A DNA stretch of 64,000 nt, from the NCBI RefSeq assembly GCF_016786325.1, contig NZ_JADWYU010000204.1, positions 1 to 64,000 of the forward strand, written 5' to 3'. The translations under genes were made by a program, and so were the position numbers. Below the pieces are notes generated by a model. That model saw nothing but the letters and a program-made list of their open reading frames with translations, was not told the origin of the DNA and made no database searches. This stretch comes from Frankia nepalensis (lineage in GTDB: Bacteria > Actinomycetota > Actinomycetes > Frankiales > Frankiaceae). The first letter of the stretch is position 1, and each line of letters begins with the position of its first letter. Positions 5,125 to 58,426 of the stretch are shown here, in pieces.

Positions 5125-6006
5125 GTGGCAGAGAGCGGCGTCACGGGTAAAAAGCCCTGGAATTTCGAATCGGTCGTGGCCGGCGACGAGTTCCGAGCTG
5201 GCGGCACGCCGATCGAACTGCGTACCGACGCGCCGCATTCGGCCCGCATGCACGACTACTATCTGGGTGGTAAGGACAACTATGCGCCGGACCGCGAGGC
5301 CGCCGAACAGTTCCTGAAAGTGTATCCGGACATCGCTCTCACGATACAGGAGAACCGTGCTTTCCTGCGACGGGTGACCCGTTTCGCCGCGAACTCGGGT
5401 GTCCGCCAGTTCCTCGACGTAGGATCGGGCATTCCCACCAGCCCGAGCATGCACGAGGTGGCTCAGAGCGTCGCGCGGGAGTGCCGGGTCATTTATGTCG
5501 ACAACGACCCGGTCGTGCTCGCCCACGCGCGAGCCCTGCTGGCCAGCGCACCGGAAGGCCGCGCGGAGCTGCTGGACGCGGACCTGCGTGAACCAGAGAA
5601 GATCTTCGCTTCTGCCGTCGTTCGCGACACCTTCGACCTCACCCAGCCCGTCGCGCTCTCGATGGCCGCGGTCCTGCATTTCATTCCCGACTCCGACGAC
5701 CCCTACGGTCTCGTCCGCCGGTATCTGGACGCGCTCCCCGGCGGTGGTCTTCTTACGATAACCCACGGCAATCCGGAGGCCTCGCCAGAGAAGTCGGAAC
5801 AGGGTGCCCAGGTCTACCGGCAGCGCGGGTTCAAGGTGTGCGTGCGTTCCCTCCCAGCGGTCGAGCGATTCTTCGACGGTCTGCACCTGGTCGACCCGGG
5901 TTTCGTGTATGTACACCGCTGGCGCCCGGAAAGTTTAGCCGAGGCCGAACTGGCCGACTCCCACGCCAACCTCTGCGGAGGAGTGGCGCGGCTCCCCGTT
6001 AGCTGA
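5125..6006 (+). CDS. SAM-dependent methyltransferase, DUF574 / Methyltransf_19 type
   Basis: A 293-residue protein with the family hallmark HSARMHDYYLGGKDNYAPDR near residue 45, then the SAM-binding strand-loop FLDVGSGIPTSPSMHE (about 95-110) and the acidic strand VIYVDNDPVVLAHAR. These proteins are greatly expanded in actinomycetes and their substrates are mostly unknown. The GTG start follows GGAAGGGA. It is monocistronic here, with no adjacent biosynthetic genes. Confidence 0.92.
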   Translation: MAESGVTGKKPWNFESVVAGDEFRAGGTPIELRTDAPHSARMHDYYLGGKDNYAPDREAAEQFLKVYPDIALTIQENRAFLRRVTRFAANSGVRQFLDVGSGIPTSPSMHEVAQSVARECRVIYVDNDPVVLAHARALLASAPEGRAELLDADLREPEKIFASAVVRDTFDLTQPVALSMAAVLHFIPDSDDPYGLVRRYLDALPGGGLLTITHGNPEASPEKSEQGAQVYRQRGFKVCVRSLPAVERFFDGLHLVDPGFVYVHRWRPESLAEAELADSHANLCGGVARLPVS

Positions 6007-6259
6007 CCCGGTGGCTGCCGAAAATGTCATCGCCCTGCTCGGACGGTCTCGGATGTGCTCCGATAGATGTCAAGCGACCAGTACTGATCGTTCGTCGACT
6101 CGCAAGTTGAGCTCGGAGGCGGGCCTGGAGGCGGCAGCAGACGCCAGCATGAAAGCCCTGGGCTAGACCGTCCGCTGTTCTGGCGGCATGGCCACCGCTG
6201 CGCTCGTTGTTACATGGCGATCTTGAATCGCCTGCCCGCCTGCCTGGGAGCCGCTGCCG

Positions 6260-6442
6260 GACTGGGGGAACGTCACACGGCGGGTGCCATCGATCACCAT
6301 GTGCTCCGAGTTGACGCCGCACTCCGGTGACCGGCGGGTGGAGCTGCGCCACCCGGGCTTCACCGCCCGCACAACCGGTGATGTGGTCGCCTGGCTGCCC
6401 GACGAGCGGGTGCTGTTCACCGGTGACCTGATCTTCACCTGA
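6260..6442 (+). pseudogene. Relic of a metallo-beta-lactamase-fold hydrolase
   Basis: An open frame with no start matches the middle of MBL-fold proteins: DRRVELRHPGF, then TTGDVVAWLPDERVLFTGDL, which in the family carries the metal-site aspartate and the strand after it. It ends in TGA straight after LIFT. The HxHxDH motif and the C-terminal third are absent, so it cannot be active. It lies between the methyltransferase and the P450. Confidence 0.8.
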
Positions 6443-6514
6443 TCTCCTCCGGTGGGTCACGGAGGTCGTTCTACAGTGGGCTCCGACCGTGGCGGGTGTG
6501 GAGGAGGACCACGA

Positions 6515-7696
6515 TTGGAGATTGACTTCGCCGATCCGGGGTTCCTGCGGGACCCATACCCGACGCTCGCCCGGCTGCGGGAGCACGCCCCGGTGAGTTG
6601 GCACGCCGGCACGGGCCGGTGGCTGGCGGCGAGCCACGCCGCGGTGGGCGCGGTGCTGCGCGACCGCCGCCTCGGCCGGCTGTGGCGGGACAAGGAGCCC
6701 GCGGCTTTCTTCGCGCCCTTCAACCTGCTGCACCGCAACCAGATGATGGAGAACGAGCCACCGGCGCATACCCGGCTGCGGTCGCTGGTCGCGCAGGCGT
6801 TCAGCCGCGGCCACGTCGAACGCCTGCGGCCGGCGGTGGCGGCCGAGGCCACGGCGCTGCTGGCCGCGGCCGGGCCCGACTTCGACCTGCTCGCCGACGT
6901 CGCCGAGCCGCTCGCCGTCACGGTCATCGCCGAACTGCTCGGCGTGCCCCGCGAGGACCGGCACCGGCTGCGGCCGTGGTCGGCCGCGATCGTGCGGATG
7001 TACGAGGTGGCGCCGTCACCCGCTACCGAGGCCGCGGCGGTCACGGCCGCCGGCGAGTTCGCGGGCTACCTGCGCACGCTGGCCGCGCGCCGCCGCGACG
7101 ACCCGCGCGACGACCTGATCAGCCACCTGGTGGCCGCGCGCGACGGCACCGACCGTCTGTCCGCCGACGAGCTGGTCGCCTCGGCGATCCTGCTGCTCAA
7201 CGCCGGCCATGAGGCCTCGGTGAACGCACTCGGCGGCGGAGTGGTGGCCCTGCTGCGGCATCCAGACCAGCTGGCCCGGCTGCGCGCCGACCGTAGGCTC
7301 ATCCCGGCCGCGGTCGAGGAGATGATCCGCTACGACCCGCCGCTGCACCTGTTCATCCGCACCGCCACCGCGGACGTCACGGTCGCCGGCGTCACGATCC
7401 CGGCCGGGGCCGAGGTGGCCGCGCTGCTCGGCGCCGCCAACCGCGACCCCGCGGTCTTCGCCGACCCGGACTCCTTCGACGCCGGCCGCGACCCCAACCC
7501 CCATGTGGGCTTCGGTGCCGGCCTGCACTTCTGCCTCGGCGCGCCGCTGGCCCGCATCGAGCTGCAGGCAGCCCTGGCCGCGCTCCTCGACCACGCCCCG
7601 ACCTGGGCGCTGGCCGCCGAACCGGTCCAGCGCCCCACCTTCGTCCTGCGCGGCTACACCGCCGTCCTGTTGACCCAGCCACCAGCACGTACCTGA
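6515..7696 (+). CDS. Cytochrome P450
   Basis: A bacterial class-I P450 of 393 residues from the TTG at 6515, which has GAGGAGG at 6501-6507. An in-frame GTG at 6452 would add 21 residues but has no ribosome site. Visible motifs are the I-helix NAGHEAS (the usual acid-alcohol pair is E-A-S rather than D/E-T), the K-helix EEMIR, and the haem loop FGAGLHFCLG with Cys340 as haem ligand. The family hydroxylates small hydrophobic substrates using a ferredoxin partner; none is encoded nearby. The gene sits between relics on both sides. Confidence 0.92.
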   Translation: MEIDFADPGFLRDPYPTLARLREHAPVSWHAGTGRWLAASHAAVGAVLRDRRLGRLWRDKEPAAFFAPFNLLHRNQMMENEPPAHTRLRSLVAQAFSRGHVERLRPAVAAEATALLAAAGPDFDLLADVAEPLAVTVIAELLGVPREDRHRLRPWSAAIVRMYEVAPSPATEAAAVTAAGEFAGYLRTLAARRRDDPRDDLISHLVAARDGTDRLSADELVASAILLLNAGHEASVNALGGGVVALLRHPDQLARLRADRRLIPAAVEEMIRYDPPLHLFIRTATADVTVAGVTIPAGAEVAALLGAANRDPAVFADPDSFDAGRDPNPHVGFGAGLHFCLGAPLARIELQAALAALLDHAPTWALAAEPVQRPTFVLRGYTAVLLTQPPART

Positions 7697-7714
7697 ACCT
7701 GCACTTGCCGAATC

Positions 7715-8081
7715 CTCACAGGCGAACAGGTCCGCGCTGTCGTCATGGCGTTCCAACAGCGCCACGACCACAGCCAGCACCTCCGGGTCGGCAACCGCCT
7801 GCACGCGTCGCCGGCCACTTTGGCGGGATAGTCGAAGATGATCTGGTCGCCGTCGATCTCCACATGCTCGCGCCGCATCGTCGTCAGACCGTAGGAGTCG
7901 TTGCGATCGGCATACTCCTCACCGCCGATGCGGAAGAATCCGACATCGAGCAAGCGCGCCGCGGCCGCCAGCACCCGCTCCCGGCTCAGCGTCGGCGCCC
8001 GCAGGTCCTTCTCGATCCGCTCCCGCAGCCGGGGCAACCGGGCCGCCACCTTCTTGGCCCACAATTTCTCGCTGGTCGCGG
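7715..8081 (-). pseudogene. Internal fragment of DNA topoisomerase IB, frameshifted
   Basis: The minus strand reads VAARLPRLRERIEKDL, then LLDVGFFRIGGEEYADRNDS and YGLTTMRREHV: the N-terminal/core boundary of poxvirus-type topoisomerase IB, which relaxes supercoils by a tyrosine intermediate. Near 7800 the frame changes and continues as VQAVADPEVLAVVVALLERH, ending around LFAC. The catalytic Arg/Lys/His/Tyr region and the true N-terminus are missing. The fragment is fused in frame to a YciI relic upstream. Confidence 0.82.
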
Positions 8082-8284
8082 CGTCGCAGAGCATGATCGC
8101 GAAGCCGCGGACGTTCTCGTCACGTCCGCGTGACGGGCCAGCGGCGAGCAGCAGGCCCCGCGAGTTCATGTCGGCCATGTCCGCGAAGTGTGCGTCTCGG
8201 ACACGCGTTTCCTCCTCGGGGGCCAGCGGCCGGATAGCCGTCCGGGCGCACCAAGGTGACGAGCGTGTAGCTGGTGAGCTTCAT
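8082..8284 (-). pseudogene. YciI-like protein relic with one frameshift
   Basis: The start MKLTSYTLVTLVRPDGYPA and the later segments PEEETRVRDAHFADM and GLLLAAGPSRGRDENVRGFA fit a YciI-family dimeric alpha-beta barrel protein of about 95 residues. The two parts lie in different frames, joined at the G5 run at 8218-8222, where one base has been gained or lost. The C-terminal third is replaced by topoisomerase IB sequence. The ATG overlaps the stop of the upstream SRPBCC relic (ATGA), showing that they once formed a coupled operon. Confidence 0.78.
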
Positions 8285-8391
8285 CGGGCGCCGACCAGCG
8301 GGGCTCCGGTCTCGACGAATGTCTTCAGGCCGCCCAGCGCGAACATCCAGCCCGGTCTCGTCCGGGCTGTCCTCGCCGAGGTCGCCATCAT
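8281..8391 (-). pseudogene. C-terminal relic of an SRPBCC (AHSA1-like) protein
   Basis: The 36-codon frame ends PGWMFALGGLKTFVETGAPL and VGAR, the typical last helix of AHSA1-like SRPBCC proteins, which bind hydrophobic ligands in a helix-grip cavity. The rest of the domain is not recognisable upstream. An AGGAGG lies just before the two ATG codons at 8386-8391, so a short peptide could still be made, but I regard it as a fragment. Confidence 0.65.
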
Positions 8392-8571
8392 GTCCTCCTG
8401 CTGTGGTGCTCGGGCCAGCGCGGACGACATTATCATCAGCCGGACTCATGGCCGCGTGCGAGTCACCTTCTAAGGGCCTCGCGGAAGGTGCCTTGTTATG
8501 AAGCTTTCTTTGTCTATTTGCTGACGATCAAAGTTGTGACCAGCGCAGATGCCCGGCGGTGAATCCCGAGG

Positions 8572-9048
8572 CTAGAGGTGAAGTGGGCGAATCGGTGCGC
8601 CTACCAGGGTCGGGTCGGTCTTCCAGTCGGCGTCGGGGACGTCGATGTACAGCTCGATCTCATTCCCGTCCGGGTCGTGGATGTAGAGGCTGTGGGTGAC
8701 GGTGTGGTCGGACGCGCCGGCGATCGTCACACCGGCCGCGGTGATGTGGGCGAGTGCCTCGCGCAGCTCGTCGTCGTTGTCGCCGACTTTGAGCCCGAAG
8801 TGGTACATCCCGACGCGGCGTCCGGCTGGAATCGGCTTTGCGTTCTCGCCCACTTCGATGAGCAGCAGCTCGTGGTGTGTCCTCGGGCCGGCCGAGAACG
8901 CCGCGGCCGGGATGCGGCGCGAAGCCGGCGCCGGGGCCAAGGGGTCGGGCAGGACTTGGCGCCAGCCCAGGACGTCCCGGTAGAAGGCGGCCGACCGGTC
9001 GATGTCCCTCACGTACAGGACGAGATGTCCGAGTTCCTTGATCTTCAT
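8572..9048 (-). CDS. VOC-family (glyoxalase/extradiol dioxygenase fold) protein
   Basis: A 158-residue protein with two beta-alpha-beta-beta-beta modules. Candidate metal ligands are the histidine in LGHLVLYVRDID, the histidine in GMYHFGLKVGD and the glutamate in DGNEIELYIDVPDADW, the arrangement found in single-chain extradiol dioxygenases and glyoxalases. The last segment is like that of small catechol-2,3-dioxygenase-type proteins. AGGAGA precedes the ATG. The substrate is unknown; there is no operon partner on its strand. Confidence 0.85.
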   Translation of the reverse strand: MKIKELGHLVLYVRDIDRSAAFYRDVLGWRQVLPDPLAPAPASRRIPAAAFSAGPRTHHELLLIEVGENAKPIPAGRRVGMYHFGLKVGDNDDELREALAHITAAGVTIAGASDHTVTHSLYIHDPDGNEIELYIDVPDADWKTDPTLVGAPIRPLHL

Positions 9049-9378
9049 GTCAGGTCTCCTGACGGTTCAAGTGGCCGAGTGATCCGTTTACCAGCGGACT
9101 GGGAGAAGCGGGCACACCATGCGCTGACGTCCGCGGTGGCGGGGATCCGCACCAGGAAGCTGTCGCGCTCGTGTCCGACCTCATGGCGGACGCTGACAGG
9201 ACGACGGGGAAAGGGCGCCGGCGCCATCTGTGATGGAAGATCTCTGCGGCCCTGCCGGGTGGACTCCGGCTGGTACCCGCGCCGTTTCGTTGTGGGTGGG
9301 TACCAGCCGGGTCGGCGGCCGCTTCGGTGTGTATCCCCGGACGTTCTGGTCAGCGGCAGCGGTCGGTGCGTTGTGCTG

Positions 9379-10326
9379 TCAGTCGCCGATCTCGATGACG
9401 ATCTTTCCGCGGGCGGTGCCGCTGGCGAGGGTGGCTAGCCCGTCGGTGGCGTTCTCGAGGGGCAGGACGGTGGTGATGTCGACTTTGAGGGTGCCGGCGG
9501 TAACCTGCTCGGCGAGTTCCGCGATGACCTCGCGGACGGGGGTGGCCATGACGCTGGTTCCGGTCAGGCCGAGCGCGGCGAGGGCCTGTTCGTCGGCGGC
9601 GCCCAGGGTGCTGGCGACCTTCCCGCCCTTGCGGACCAACTCGAGGGGCGCGGTGTCGGGGGTGTAGGCCACGAGGTCGATCAGGGCGTCGACGCCGTCG
9701 GGGTAGACGGTGGCCACCTGCTGGGCGACCGGGCCGGCGGTGTAGTCGATGACGGTGGTCGCGCCGAGCGTGGTCAGCCGGTCGGTGTCGACGGCGGTGG
9801 CGGTGGCGACGACGGTGACGCCGCGGGCGGCGAGCAGCTGGACGGTGTAGGAACCGACGCCGCCGCCGGCTCCGACGACGAGGACGGTCTGACCGGGCCG
9901 CGGTTCGATAGCGTCGACGGCGGCCTTGGCGGCGGCCGCGGCGAGGGGGAGCGCGGCGGCGGCGGTGAAGTCGAGGCCGGTCGGCTTGCGGGTGACCGCG
10001 GCGGCGGGCAGCAGCGCGTACTCGGCGAGAGTGCCGGCCTGGATCGGTGGAACGAGCAGCATGTGGCCGATCACCTCGTCGCCGATGGCGACGTGGTCGA
10101 CGCCGGCTCCGACGGCCTCGACGACGCCGGCGGCGTCACGGCCGAGGACCAGCGGGTACACATGCGGGAGCATCTCGGCCATCATCCCGGCGGCCAGGGC
10201 GTTGTCGAGGGCGTTGAGACCAGCCGCCTTCACGCGGACCAGCACGGTGTCCTCGACGGGTGCGGGGACCGGCAGGTCGGACAGGCGGGGCTGCTCGCCC
10301 GCAGCCGGGACGTTCAGTGCGCGCAT
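9379..10326 (-). CDS. NADP-dependent quinone-oxidoreductase-like MDR enzyme
   Basis: From the ATG at 10326 (GGGAGC upstream) the protein has 315 residues. It lacks zinc-binding cysteines. It has the MDR nucleotide loop VLVVGAGGGVGSYTVQLLAA and ends ARGKIVIEIGD, as zinc-free quinone reductase/enoyl reductase-like members do. An upstream in-frame extension to 10461 would read through the operator palindromes and is not preferred. It is divergent to a MarR gene that probably represses it, a common arrangement for electrophile- or quinone-responsive reductases. Confidence 0.88.
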   Translation of the reverse strand: MRALNVPAAGEQPRLSDLPVPAPVEDTVLVRVKAAGLNALDNALAAGMMAEMLPHVYPLVLGRDAAGVVEAVGAGVDHVAIGDEVIGHMLLVPPIQAGTLAEYALLPAAAVTRKPTGLDFTAAAALPLAAAAAKAAVDAIEPRPGQTVLVVGAGGGVGSYTVQLLAARGVTVVATATAVDTDRLTTLGATTVIDYTAGPVAQQVATVYPDGVDALIDLVAYTPDTAPLELVRKGGKVASTLGAADEQALAALGLTGTSVMATPVREVIAELAEQVTAGTLKVDITTVLPLENATDGLATLASGTARGKIVIEIGD

Positions 10327-40743: not shown

Positions 40744-40818
40744 AGCGTGCCAAAACTCGATTCGGGGCGTGACCTGCGGTTTCGCTGTTCTATCAGGTGG
40801 CGCGGTGGTGCTCGCGTA
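40744..40818 (-). mobile_element. Inverted remnant of the IS right end seen at 61.1 kb
   Basis: GCGTGCCAAAACTCGATTCG and the following GCGTGACCTGCGGTTT are the reverse complement of the region just after the transposase at 61050-61104, with a few substitutions and single-base losses. The match extends a little into the end of the transposase reading frame. This is a solo end left after deletion of a related copy. Confidence 0.82.
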
Positions 40819-40937: not shown

Positions 40938-43925
40938 ATGCGGGAGCGTCTGCTCGGGCAGGTGCGGTCACGGCTGGAAACGTTTGCGGTCGATTGGAAG
41001 GCTGGCCGCGCTGTCTACCTGCTAGGCAAGACGATGCTGACCGGCAACCCGTCGACGCTGAACGAGGCGATCGACCTGCTCCGGCAGGCTGTGGATGCCA
41101 CTCCTGTTGATTGCCCCGACCGTGCCGGGCGGTTGTCCAACCTCGGCGCCGCCTTGAGCCTCCGGTATGAGCGCGATGGGAGACCGGCGGACCTGAATGA
41201 TGCGATCGGTGCCGTGCAGGCCGCGGTGGATGCCACGCCCGTTGACCAGCCCGTCCGCGCCGTGGACCTGTCTAACCTTGGCAACGTCCTGCGCGCCCGG
41301 TTCGAGCAGGTCGGGAGGCTGGCGGACCTGGAGGCCGCGATTGCGGCGGGACAGGCCGCGGTGGACACCGTTCCCGTTGACCATCCCGGCCGCGCTGGGA
41401 TGCTGTCCAACCTCGGCAACGCTCTGAACAGACGGTTCGGGTGGGGCGGCGAGCTGGCGGACCTGGAGGCCGCGATTGCGGCGGGACAGGCCGCGGTGGA
41501 TGCCACGCCCGTTGACCAGCCCGTCCGCGCCGGGCGGTTGTCCAACCTCGGTGACGCCCTGCGCGTCCGGTTCGAACGGCTCGGGGAGCTGGCGGACCTG
41601 GAGGCTGCGATTGCGGCGGGACAGGCCGCGGTGGACGCTACCCCCGTTGGCCACCCTGACCAGGCCGTGTACCTGTCCAACCTCGGTAACGCCCTGCACC
41701 TCCGATTCGAACGGATCGGGGAACTGGCCGACCTGGACGCGGCGATTGTGGCCGGGCAGGCCGCGGTGGACGCCACCCCCGTCGATCACCCCGATCGCGC
41801 CGCGATGCTGTCCAACCTCGGTGGTGCCCTGCACGTCCGGTTCGAACGGGTCGGGGAGCTGGCGGACTTGGACGCGGCGATTGTGGCTGGGCAGGCCGCG
41901 GTGGACGCCACTCCCGTCGACTACCCGGCCCGCGCCGCGATGCTGGCCAACCTTGGCAGCGCCCTGAGTAGCCGGTTCGAACGGAGCGAGGAACTGGCCG
42001 ACCTGGACGCGGCGATTGTGGCCGGGCAGGCCGCGGTGGACGCCACCCCCGTCGATCACCCCGATCGCGCCGCGATGCTGTCCAACCTCGGTGGTGCCCT
42101 GCACGTCCGGTTCGAACGGGTCGGGGAGCTGGCGGACTTGGACGCGGCGATTGTGGCTGGGCAGGCCGCGGTGGACGCCACTCCCGTCGACTACCCGGCC
42201 CGCGCCGCGATGCTGGCCAACCTTGGCAACGCCCTGGGTAGCCGATTCGATCGCGACGGTGAGCCGGCGGACCTGGACGCCGCGATCAGCGACTACCGGG
42301 CGGCGGTTGGGATGGGCGGAGTGGCGCCGCGGGTACGGGCAGGTGCGGCGCATGGCTGGGGGCTGGTCGCGGCACGCGGAGGGCGGTGGCTGGAAGCCGT
42401 GGCGGGGTATGCCGCGGCGACCGAGCTGCTGGGGCAGGTCGCGCCGCGCAGCCTGAAGCGCGGCGATCAGGAGCATCTGCTGGCCGAGCTCGGGAATCTG
42501 GGCGCGGACGCGGCGGCCTGCTGCGTGCGGGCGGGGCTGATCGGCCGGGCGGTGGAGTTGTTCGAGCAGGGTCGGGGGGTGCTGCTGGGTCAGGCGTTGG
42601 ACACCCGCACCGATGTGACCGCTCTTGCCGAGCAGCATCCCGACCTGGCGGCATCGTTCATCGGCCTGTGTACCGCCTTGGACCAGGCCGACGACCTGCC
42701 CGGGCTGACGCAGTCCCAGGTCGGTGAGGATGCGGCCGCGACCGGCGCGGAACGCCGGGCGGCAGGCGCGGCGTTCGACGATCTGATCGCCCGGATTCGC
42801 GGGCTGGCCGGGTTCGAGGGGTTTCTCCATCCACCGCCGGTCACGGAACTGTTGGCGACGGCGACGGACGGCCCGGTGGTAGTCGTGGCGGTCTCGGAGT
42901 TCGGTTCGTACGCGCTGCTGCTGACAGGCGGAGGGGTGGAGGCGGTGCCGCTGGCCGGGCTGACGCCGCAGGCAGTGCACGACCAGGTGATCGCCCTCCT
43001 CGGCGCGCTGGACGACACCACCCCGGCGCTGCAGGGGCGGTTAGGTGAGATCGTCGGCTGGTTGTGGGATGTCCTCGCCGGCCCGGTGCTCGACCGTCTG
43101 GACGTCGTCGGCCCGCCACGCGATGGCGGCCGGTGGCCACGGTTGTGGTGGTGCACCTCGGGGCTCCTGTCGTTTCTGCCGGTGCACGCCGCCGGCCATC
43201 ACCACACCCGGTTCGACCCGTCCCCGGCGACCGTCCTGGACAGGGCGATCGCCTCCTATACCCCCACCATCCGAGCTTTGGCCCACGCCCGCCGCGCCAG
43301 CCCGCTACCGGGCGGCAGCCGTGTCAGCCTCCAGGATGATGGCCGGCTGGTCGCGGTAGCCATGCCCCACACCCCCGACGCCGCCGACCTACCCGGTGCC
43401 CAGGTCGAAACCGCCAGCCTGCAGGCGCGCTTCTCCGGCCAGGTCGACCTGCTCACCGGCCCGCAGGCAACCAGGCAAGCGGTGCTCGGCCGGCTACCGA
43501 CCGCCCGATGGGCGCATTTCGCCTGCCACGGCACCGTCAACCTGGCCGACCCGTCCGCCAGCCAGCTGTTGCTCGCCGACCACCAGACCCGGCCGCTGAC
43601 CGTCCTCGACGTGGCCCGGCTGCGCCTGCGCGACGCGGAACTGGCGTTCCTTTCCGCCTGCGAAACGGCCCGGCCAGGCAGGCGGCTGACCGACGAGGCA
43701 ATCCATCTGGCCTCGGCGTTCCAGCTCGCCGGCTACCGGCACGTGATCGCCACACTCTGGCCGATCAGCGACCGGCACGCCGTCGACATCGCCAACGACA
43801 TCTACACCACCCTCGCCACGACCGGGGACGCCGCCGCCGCCGTCCACACCGCCACCCGCCAGCTCCGCGGCCTCTGGGCCCGCCACCCCTCGGTCTGGGC
43901 ATCCCATATCCACGTCGGCATGTGA
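40938..43925 (+). CDS. TPR-CHAT protein (caspase-like protease with tetratricopeptide sensor)
   Basis: 995 residues. Residues about 25-460 are tandem 45-residue TPR-like repeats (pattern ADLDAAIVAGQAAVDATPVD). About 470-640 is a helical linker, and about 690-995 is a CHAT domain with the catalytic His864 in HFACHG and Cys908 in LSACETA. CHAT proteins are caspase-like peptidases activated by TPR-sensed partners, known in type III-E CRISPR and gasdermin systems; neither partner is seen here. It faces a convergent operon encoding a membrane protein. Upstream lie transposon scraps. Repeat copies include a recent duplication, so repeat number may vary among strains. Confidence 0.92.
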   Translation: MRERLLGQVRSRLETFAVDWKAGRAVYLLGKTMLTGNPSTLNEAIDLLRQAVDATPVDCPDRAGRLSNLGAALSLRYERDGRPADLNDAIGAVQAAVDATPVDQPVRAVDLSNLGNVLRARFEQVGRLADLEAAIAAGQAAVDTVPVDHPGRAGMLSNLGNALNRRFGWGGELADLEAAIAAGQAAVDATPVDQPVRAGRLSNLGDALRVRFERLGELADLEAAIAAGQAAVDATPVGHPDQAVYLSNLGNALHLRFERIGELADLDAAIVAGQAAVDATPVDHPDRAAMLSNLGGALHVRFERVGELADLDAAIVAGQAAVDATPVDYPARAAMLANLGSALSSRFERSEELADLDAAIVAGQAAVDATPVDHPDRAAMLSNLGGALHVRFERVGELADLDAAIVAGQAAVDATPVDYPARAAMLANLGNALGSRFDRDGEPADLDAAISDYRAAVGMGGVAPRVRAGAAHGWGLVAARGGRWLEAVAGYAAATELLGQVAPRSLKRGDQEHLLAELGNLGADAAACCVRAGLIGRAVELFEQGRGVLLGQALDTRTDVTALAEQHPDLAASFIGLCTALDQADDLPGLTQSQVGEDAAATGAERRAAGAAFDDLIARIRGLAGFEGFLHPPPVTELLATATDGPVVVVAVSEFGSYALLLTGGGVEAVPLAGLTPQAVHDQVIALLGALDDTTPALQGRLGEIVGWLWDVLAGPVLDRLDVVGPPRDGGRWPRLWWCTSGLLSFLPVHAAGHHHTRFDPSPATVLDRAIASYTPTIRALAHARRASPLPGGSRVSLQDDGRLVAVAMPHTPDAADLPGAQVETASLQARFSGQVDLLTGPQATRQAVLGRLPTARWAHFACHGTVNLADPSASQLLLADHQTRPLTVLDVARLRLRDAELAFLSACETARPGRRLTDEAIHLASAFQLAGYRHVIATLWPISDRHAVDIANDIYTTLATTGDAAAAVHTATRQLRGLWARHPSVWASHIHVGM
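41720..42228 (+). repeat. 239-bp exact direct repeat, 270-bp offset, inside the TPR array
   Basis: Bases 41720-41958 recur without a mismatch at 41990-42228. The offset equals two 45-codon TPR units, so the reading frame is kept. Neighbouring units are similar but diverged, so this pair arose recently by unequal recombination or gene conversion. Repeats of this size can be miscounted in short-read assemblies. Confidence 0.93.
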
Positions 43926-44107: not shown

Positions 44108-45049
44108 CTAGGTCGGTGGGGTGAAGGTGGGTGTGGTGTTGTCGGAGCCGCGGAGGAGGTAGGTGGTGAGCTGGCGGCCTTGCTCATGTTCGTCTTGGGG
44201 GTCGGTAGGTGGGGGCCAGCGGAGGTGGGTGTAGAGGAGGGCGCGGTGGGTGTCGTAGGCGGCTTCGAGGAGGTCGCCGAAGGCTTGTGCGCGGGTGGGG
44301 ATGGCGAGGGTGAGGGTGAGGGTGGCGATGGTGAGGCCGATGGGGATGGCCCAGAGGGTGAGGGGTGCGAAGGCGCAGTAGAGCAGGGCCCAGAGGGTGG
44401 TGGTGGCGGCGGTGTCGAGGGAGGCGCGGGCGGCGAGGAGGTCCTGGCGGAGGGTGTCGGGGAGCAGGGGCCACAGGCGGGGCCAGCAGATGATGGCGTC
44501 GAGGCCGTATTTGTCGTGGGGGCGGCGTTCGGCGGCGCGCAGGATGTTTCCGATCGGGGTGGGCAGGAAGTAGCCCGGGGTGGCGGCCGGTGGGTGTCGG
44601 CGGCGGCGTTGTTCGAGCCGGTTGTAGGTGGCGATCTGCTCGACGCTCGGTGTGGCGGGTGGGGTGGGGAATGCGGCGGCGTAGGCGGTCTGCCAGGCGG
44701 TTTCCTCGGTTGCGGCGCGGGTGGCGTGCCGGGTGGCGAGGCGGTGGCGCAGCGGGTTGGTCCAGGCGGGCCAGTAGCCCTCCAGCAGTCGCAGCAGCGG
44801 GGTCGCGGCCTGGTGGATGAGGATGCCGGAGGCGCCGATGCTGAGGAGTGCGGTGAGGATGACGGCGCCTTGCACGAGGCCGGTCTGTTTGTTCAGCCAG
44901 TCGGTGTGCCTGGTCAGGGTGTGCAGGCCGCCGGCGTGCCAGGTCCAGGCGGCGAGTCCCGCGAGCCAGAAGATGAGCGCGGGAAGGGAGACCGCGGCGA
45001 CCCGGTCGGCGAGTTTGTTCCCGACCGCTTCCCAGAACGAGCCCAGCAC
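44108..45049 (-). CDS. Polytopic membrane protein of unknown function
   Basis: 313 residues with about four membrane segments: near 21-42 (LPALIFWLAGLAAWTW), 60-78 (GAVILTALLSIGASGILIH) and a long C-terminal hairpin near 215-250 (LWALLYCAFAPLTLWAIPIG). A charged cytoplasmic-type loop of about 130 residues lies between segments two and three. The GTG start is 2 bp after the stop of the zinc-ribbon-like gene, so they are coupled. It does not look like a gasdermin. It may be the effector or sensor of the CHAT locus (inference). Confidence 0.82.
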   Translation of the reverse strand: MLGSFWEAVGNKLADRVAAVSLPALIFWLAGLAAWTWHAGGLHTLTRHTDWLNKQTGLVQGAVILTALLSIGASGILIHQAATPLLRLLEGYWPAWTNPLRHRLATRHATRAATEETAWQTAYAAAFPTPPATPSVEQIATYNRLEQRRRRHPPAATPGYFLPTPIGNILRAAERRPHDKYGLDAIICWPRLWPLLPDTLRQDLLAARASLDTAATTTLWALLYCAFAPLTLWAIPIGLTIATLTLTLAIPTRAQAFGDLLEAAYDTHRALLYTHLRWPPPTDPQDEHEQGRQLTTYLLRGSDNTTPTFTPPT

Positions 45050-45051
45050 GG

Positions 45052-45486
45052 CTAGGACCGGTCCAGCGCGACGTGGTGAGTCGGGCAGGCGGGCACCGGG
45101 GTCGCGACGTCGGGGCGGTACCAGACGTAGTCACCATGCGGGCAGGCGTAACGGTCCGCCCGGATGGCACCGGGATTCCCGATCGGGTCGGCGCCGCGCG
45201 GGGTGCGCTGGTAGCGGGTCTGCTCGTAGGGCGGCCGGAAGTCCGGCGAGTCAGCGAGGACCTCCGTCAGAAACCAGCGGGTGGTGTCGCGGGTGTCGAG
45301 CAGATCCCGCAGTTGGCGGACCTGCCCGGGCATATCGCGCTGGTCGTCCAGCGCGTCGGCGAGTTGACGATCAAGATCGGCCGCGGCCCGCGGGCCGATC
45401 AGATCGGCCAGGTAGGGGCGGATCGCCCGCGCTGCCTCCACCACACCGGCCTCACCGCCAGCTGGGTTCATATCCTCGAGTTGCAT
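45052..45486 (-). CDS. Small helical protein with C-terminal zinc-ribbon-like motif
   Basis: 144 residues from an ATG with AAGGGA upstream. Residues 10-75 are predicted helical (AARAIRPYLADLIGPRAAAD). The C-terminus has YACPHGDYVWYRP and ACPTHHVAL, two CxxH-like pairs that could bind zinc. I do not recognise a named family. It is placed between a broken CHAT gene and the membrane protein on the same strand, so it may be an adaptor of a CHAT system. Confidence 0.78.
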   Translation of the reverse strand: MQLEDMNPAGGEAGVVEAARAIRPYLADLIGPRAAADLDRQLADALDDQRDMPGQVRQLRDLLDTRDTTRWFLTEVLADSPDFRPPYEQTRYQRTPRGADPIGNPGAIRADRYACPHGDYVWYRPDVATPVPACPTHHVALDRS

Positions 45487-45528: not shown

Positions 45529-45789
45529 TCAGGGCCCGACGTGGATATGAGACGCCCACGTCGAAGGCGCGGCAGCCCAACGGTCGCGGAGTTCGCGCAC
45601 GGCCGTGTGGACGGCGGCGGCTGCGTCCCCGGTCGTCGCCAGTGCAGCGTAGATGTCGTCAGCGACGGCGACGGCATGCTGGTCGCCGATCGGCCACAGG
45701 GTAGCGATCACATGGCGGTAGCCCGCAAGCTGGAACGCCGACGCCAGATGTATCGCCTCGTCGACAAGCCGCAGCCGTTCGTGCGACAG
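45529..45789 (-). pseudogene. C-terminal relic of a second CHAT protein
   Basis: It reads VDEAIHLASAFQLAGYRHVI, ATLWPIGDQHAVAVADDIYA and WASHIHVGP, about four-fifths identical by eye to the end of the intact TPR-CHAT protein. The similarity begins just after where the catalytic cysteine should be, so both catalytic residues are lost. It is 42 bp upstream of the zinc-ribbon-like gene on the same strand, suggesting an original CHAT/adaptor/membrane-protein operon. Confidence 0.85.
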
Positions 45790-46022
45790 CCGGTGGTCTG
45801 GATCTCGAGCTGGCTGAGGGGGTGCTCGGATCTCGAAACGGTCCCTGGCTGGTCGGCGAGCCGACCGGGAGTCGGTGAGCGCGGTCGCTTCGGGGCGGTT
45901 TACCCACAGGGCGAGCGGCGGTGCAGTGGCATGGCTCACCTGTGTTCGGCGGGGGGAGAGTCGAGGGACCGTCGGTGGTTCGGTGAGGGGGCCGCATCGA
46001 CCACCGCTGGCGGAGGATGACC

Positions 46023-58353: not shown

Positions 58354-58378
58354 CGCCGGCCCCTGTGCCAGGCGGGGC

Positions 58379-58426
58379 GCTCACCGCGGCATCGCCGGGA
58401 ACGCTCACCGCGGCATCGCCGGGAAC
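58379..58426. repeat. Perfect 24-bp tandem duplication
   Basis: Bases 58379-58402 are repeated exactly at 58403-58426. The unit begins GCTCACCGCGG and ends CCGGGAAC. There are only two copies and no spacer, so this is a simple slippage duplication within degenerating sequence. Confidence 0.9.

Follow-up and report, generated by a model that had tools for sequence, protein, structure and literature searches.

The window analysed here is a stretch of 64 kb (64,000 nucleotides) from a genome of 10.7 Mb, available as a draft of 398 contigs. On its forward strand, at 40938..43925, it contains a gene for a TPR-CHAT protein of 995 aa, recognised from its open reading frame, its Pfam matches and an AF2 model. 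The protein runs from an N-terminal helix through nine TPR units of 45 aa and a linker to a C-terminal, caspase-like CHAT domain. The nine 45-codon units, mapped within the ORF, occupy 41064..42278 (+). The array is detected by Pfam TPR_10 (E = 1e-10), and nine helix pairs are present in the AF2 model. The CHAT domain (PF12770, E = 4.7e-50) covers aa 706-994, that is, 43053..43919 (+), and includes His864 (in HFACHG) and Cys908 (in SACET), neither of which varies in an alignment across 24 relatives. These two residues form the putative catalytic dyad of a caspase-like protease. CHAT and TPR are the only domains that Pfam reports for the protein, an NB-ARC or NACHT ATPase domain being absent.

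A search of the solved structures by sequence gave no match at E up to 1e-3, so that a fold comparison was needed. The AF2 model (pLDDT 89, pTM 0.88) displays a TPR solenoid with the caspase-like domain at its end, and its best fold matches (VIA-align) are TPR-CHAT/Csx29 of Craspase (Z 32.2, rmsd 9.0, 563 residues aligned) and separase (Z 26.6, rmsd 3.1, 326 residues aligned). Csx29, from the type III-E CRISPR Craspase, is the closest solved fold, and shares with our protein the combination of a TPR arm and a CHAT protease. It differs, however, in that identity is only 12%, the NCBIfam Csx29 model reaches 42.8 bits on the TPR-CHAT protein (below its cut-off of 300), and the array of the window gene is longer and made of near-uniform 45-aa units. 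A second NCBIfam match, to the fimbrial StaE, was discarded as spurious (27 bits for a cut-off of 372). Separase likewise joins an alpha-solenoid to a caspase-like protease, and the fold match extends over the protease part; it is a eukaryotic cohesin protease and is not known to contain a recombining array of near-identical repeats. No PADLOC family matched the TPR-CHAT protein at E up to 1e-3, and no Cas family was found in a Pfam scan of the ten neighbouring ORFs.

Convergent to the TPR-CHAT gene are two genes encoding a multi-helix membrane protein of 313 aa (44108..45049, -) and a protein of 144 aa (45052..45486, -). They lie behind a remnant of a second TPR-CHAT gene (45529..45939, -), placed upstream of both and reduced to about the last 80 aa of CHAT (homologous part 45535-45774); its counterpart is intact in the two related loci L112 and L114. 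Neither the 313-aa nor the 144-aa protein has a match in Pfam or NCBIfam, and a fold search with the membrane protein returned no match at E up to 1e-3, which is no proof of a new fold. In Frankiaceae, the TPR-CHAT gene is often followed by the 144-aa gene and then by the membrane protein gene, so that in these relatives the 144-aa gene sits between the other two. A conserved operon of the three genes is present at loci L036, L038, L055, L076, L112, L114 and L119, and in Streptomyces and others, weaker relatives of the membrane protein are encoded near TPR-CHAT genes.

Within the array, the segment 41720..41958 (+), which comprises the end of unit 5, unit 6 and most of unit 7, is letter-identical over 239 bp to the segment 41990..42228 (+), which comprises the end of unit 7, unit 8 and most of unit 9. 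The offset is 270 bp, equal to two 45-codon units, and the 239-mer has no third occurrence in the window. The initial annotation had described such an exact repeat, in an array whose other units are diverged, and both statements hold: DNA identity is 100% between units 6 and 8 and 91% between units 7 and 9, against 61 to 84% for the remaining pairs of the nine-unit array. With an inter-unit identity of about 80%, the chance of an exact run of 239 bp is about 7e-24. No other in-register exact repeat is as long in a set of about 95 TPR-CHAT ORFs collected from actinobacteria: those that follow measure 85, 74, 66 and 55 bp, and nearly all belong to the same genus or to Frankia; the exact runs of L055 and L075, which are made by, or adjoin, runs of N, were excluded from this ranking. 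The identity tract lacks 31 bp of the full 270-bp period, and its flanks fall directly to the usual inter-unit divergence. The best 270-bp window has five mismatches, every one of them inside these 31 bp, a clustering expected with a probability of about 2e-5 if mutation were even.

The two 239-mers are flanked by three distinct 31-mers (41689-41719, 41959-41989 and 42229-42259), each unique in the window. The middle one (41959..41989, +) is the junction segment of unit 7, with a head similar to the last unit, a tail similar to unit 5, and bases found in neither of the other two 31-mers. If unit 7 is taken as a hybrid of the last unit and unit 5, four mismatches are left over 57 bp, compared with 10 and 11 for the single-parent fits; unit 5 (41604..41738, +) is the presumed donor of its tail. 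When changes are polarised with the last unit of the sister species as outgroup, unit 7 has about four of its own and unit 9 has two, and all of them are in the 31-bp segment. About six private changes are therefore found in the two 31-bp tails, and none in the two 239-bp tracts.

Could the true array be single-copy, one copy having been duplicated by the assembler? The source genome is indeed a draft of 398 contigs, and the family offers a precedent: in a relative from Frankia sp. QA3 (L075, ORF 5663-9511), the TPR array contains a duplicate of 218 bp that does not keep the unit register (3.17 units); its second copy begins directly after a 100-N gap, and the duplicate is a probable assembly artefact. 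In the window, however, there is no N, the frame is intact and the offset is exactly two units, while two different 31-mers enter the 239-mer and two different ones leave it. Moreover, the middle 31-mer, with its private bases and single occurrence, must have been present in reads, and a single-copy array could yield no read containing it, so that over-counting is hard to explain. We consider the artefact, which had been named at the outset as a possible refutation, highly improbable given these private bases. Barring a mixture of strains, the assembly may under-count units but would hardly over-count them, and the unit count is best read as a lower bound.

The closest relative of the gene is its orthologue in a sister species (genome G003, C1:3266475-3269327), which is carried by a contig of 8.19 Mb and has eight units, versus nine in the window gene. 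It is the one orthologue above 90% nucleotide identity that was found when the genus and the family were searched for a closer strain. The part of the gene that follows the array is 96% identical between the two, and units 1 to 5 correspond one to one, at 90 to 99% nucleotide identity. The last unit of the window array (unit 9, 42144..42278, +) is orthologous to the last unit of the sister array (unit 8; 93% nucleotide identity). Window units 6 to 9 are thus replaced by just three units in the sister species. Two of these, its units 6 and 7, resemble each other at 95%, and both are matched by window units 6/8 (93% and 92%). By parsimony from these two genomes, the simplest ancestral array would have had about seven units (1 to 5, one unit X, and the last), and the simplest history would be one of independent gains, of two units in the window lineage (X plus last) and of one in the sister lineage (X).

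Unit number is variable beyond this pair, with 9 units in the window gene and 8, 12 and 7 in its three closest relatives. In one relative, L112, similarity follows a three-unit period (units 2 and 5 are 91% identical, units 3 and 6 90%), a pattern by which we recognise another multi-unit duplication. Exchange with paralogues was also considered, and rejected: for each window unit, the nearest counterpart lies in the gene's own orthologue and not in another paralogue. Similarity to the sister locus is limited to positions 40814 to about 43925, that is, to the gene and some 120 bp upstream of it, and the flanks are unrelated on both sides. As similarity stops near the gene edges, the neighbourhood is not conserved, and the TPR-CHAT gene may be mobile by itself, as a unit of one gene.

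Divergence between the two species is about twice as high in the array as in the rest of the gene, synonymous sites included (dS 0.136 versus 0.071, p = 0.027; p = 0.0014 for all sites), as unit shuffling would give. Of the 1647 sites that follow the array, 65 differ between the species, while the two copies of the repeat differ at 0 of 239 (95% bound 1.25%). At the between-species rate, the chance of finding no difference in 239 bp is 7e-5, which places the event, or the most recent homogenisation, after the two species had separated. The initial annotation had proposed that the array is remodelled by recombination, and this is well supported by the nine versus eight units, the independent expansions, the chimeric unit 7 and the raised divergence of the array. 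Its more precise proposal, a recent duplication of two units, stands in so far as two units were gained in frame, and recently when measured against the divergence from the sister species; a clean duplication of 270 bp, however, leaves unexplained an identity of 239 bp with clustered private changes at its flank.

We therefore favour, as a likely although not certain reading, unequal exchange with later conversion or selection, in a TPR-CHAT array where an alpha-solenoid recognition arm is coupled to a caspase-like protease. From about seven units in the ancestor, the array would have grown by two in the window lineage through recombination of misaligned copies, which would have exchanged where the last unit ends and where unit 5 ends; this would produce the order 5-6-(9/5 hybrid)-6-9. 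This mechanism is well supported, although it rests on the comparison with one orthologue. After a clean duplication with a period of 270 bp, the copies are at first identical over 270 bp or more, whereas 239 are seen, so that gene conversion must have followed, or the junction must have come under selection. The 239-bp identity might stem from a recent event, from later gene conversion re-homogenising the copies, or from both. Conversion that erased differences elsewhere and selection for changes at the junction both fit.

Alternatively, array length may not have changed at all: units 6 to 9 would have been there already, and a tract of about 239 bp would have been copied from one pair of units to the other. 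Such a conversion would agree with an identity that ends 31 bp before the full period between flanks of ordinary divergence, and conversion between paralogous units would also raise the divergence of the array. However, the hybrid unit 7 and the eight-unit sister array indicate that length did change in the window lineage, and we regard conversion at constant length as quite unlikely. Conversion following an earlier duplication, in contrast, is compatible with both of these features.

Unequal exchange does not require selection. TPR arrays in general grow open-endedly, and coding tandem arrays such as this one might expand and contract by neutral slippage, without any link to recognition. Length, however, is kept in twelve orthologues from other genera (Streptomyces, Actinacidiphila and Actinomadura; loci L047-L053, L056, L067, L079, L100 and L106), which all measure 1171 to 1172 aa, align with one gap column and are 83 to 95% identical. 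Judged by this constancy, the array is frozen in the twelve-orthologue actinobacterial group, unlike that of the window's clade, so that change is not inevitable; the units of these orthologues are also too diverged for easy recombination. A second argument against neutral slippage, which we hold to be unlikely, comes from pN/pS ratios that exceed 1 solely at the ligand-facing positions, taken as a group.

When 228 TPR units of the window's genus were aligned, the most variable unit positions were 29, 22, 23, 40, 33 and 32, which correspond to TPR positions 9, 2, 3, 20, 13 and 12. The hypervariable positions of the TPR concave face described in the literature are 2, 5, 9, 12, 13, 33 and 34 (PMC1261162); position 5 is conserved in the present units. 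At TPR positions 2, 5, 9, 12 and 13 (helix A), pN/pS is 1.67 in the four closest proteins and 0.43 elsewhere, these ratios, like those that follow, being pairwise counts over related and partly homogenised units and not the output of a formal site model. For the two orthologues the values are 1.87 and 0.34, and in more diverged paralogues they are 0.92 at ligand-facing positions and 0.55 elsewhere. This indicates, rather than proves, positive selection at concave-face positions. The idea, put forward in the initial annotation, of a fast-evolving recognition sensor gains from the excess of non-synonymous changes at ligand-facing positions; the term 'sensor' itself, with PADLOC giving no match, goes one step further than the ratios do.

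A recognition role of the TPR array is likely by analogy with the repeats of fungal NLRs. In fungal NOD-like receptors (Podospora and others), TPR, ANK and WD repeats are near-identical and polymorphic in number, and positive selection on the TPRs is located on the concave face (Dyrka et al. 2014, PMC4986451). The window gene resembles them in its near-identical internal repeats, in the nine versus eight units of close relatives and, as far as the pairwise ratios indicate, in its concave-face variation. It differs in that the fungal receptors are eukaryotic, contain a STAND/NOD ATPase and were documented by within-species data, whereas here two species are compared, and the protein has no NOD domain and ends in a CHAT protease. 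In bacteria, highly repetitive beta-propellers of Actinobacteria and Cyanobacteria were recently amplified, and a link to innate immunity has been proposed for them (PMC9218822). The two cases have in common near-identical units that are still being amplified, although the propellers are built of WD40-type blades and the window gene encodes a TPR-CHAT protein. In other systems, CHAT-linked sensors are diversified by DGR mutagenesis (PMC10907252).

In the favoured reading, the array would bind a variable target and binding would control the CHAT protease, a control that probably serves defence or self/non-self recognition, with membrane-associated partners. It is possible, if on the whole unlikely, that Pseudofrankia-type TPR-CHAT genes make up a bacterial repertoire of recombination-diversified receptors. 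Their arm would vary by unit exchange and ligand-facing selection, and target binding would free the CHAT protease onto the 144-aa and 313-aa membrane partners, in a parallel to fungal NLR allorecognition that dispenses with the STAND ATPase. While the pattern is already known from fungal NLRs, array remodelling with apparent concave-face diversification is found here in a bacterial, protease-linked case. Its role is made testable by arrays that are frozen in one actinobacterial clade and churning in another, and the conserved, unannotated membrane protein is a candidate substrate of the CHAT protease.

The size of the family differs between assemblies. The sister genome G003 has about 14 largely intact TPR-CHAT genes of 7 to 24 units (L111-L113, L115-L120 and L123 among them). 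The draft genome of the window has two, the second of which (G000:C132) reaches to about 100 bp from a contig end; the number of family members is probably underestimated in draft assemblies. Elsewhere in the window, at 58378-58426, a unit of 24 bp is present in two exact tandem copies.
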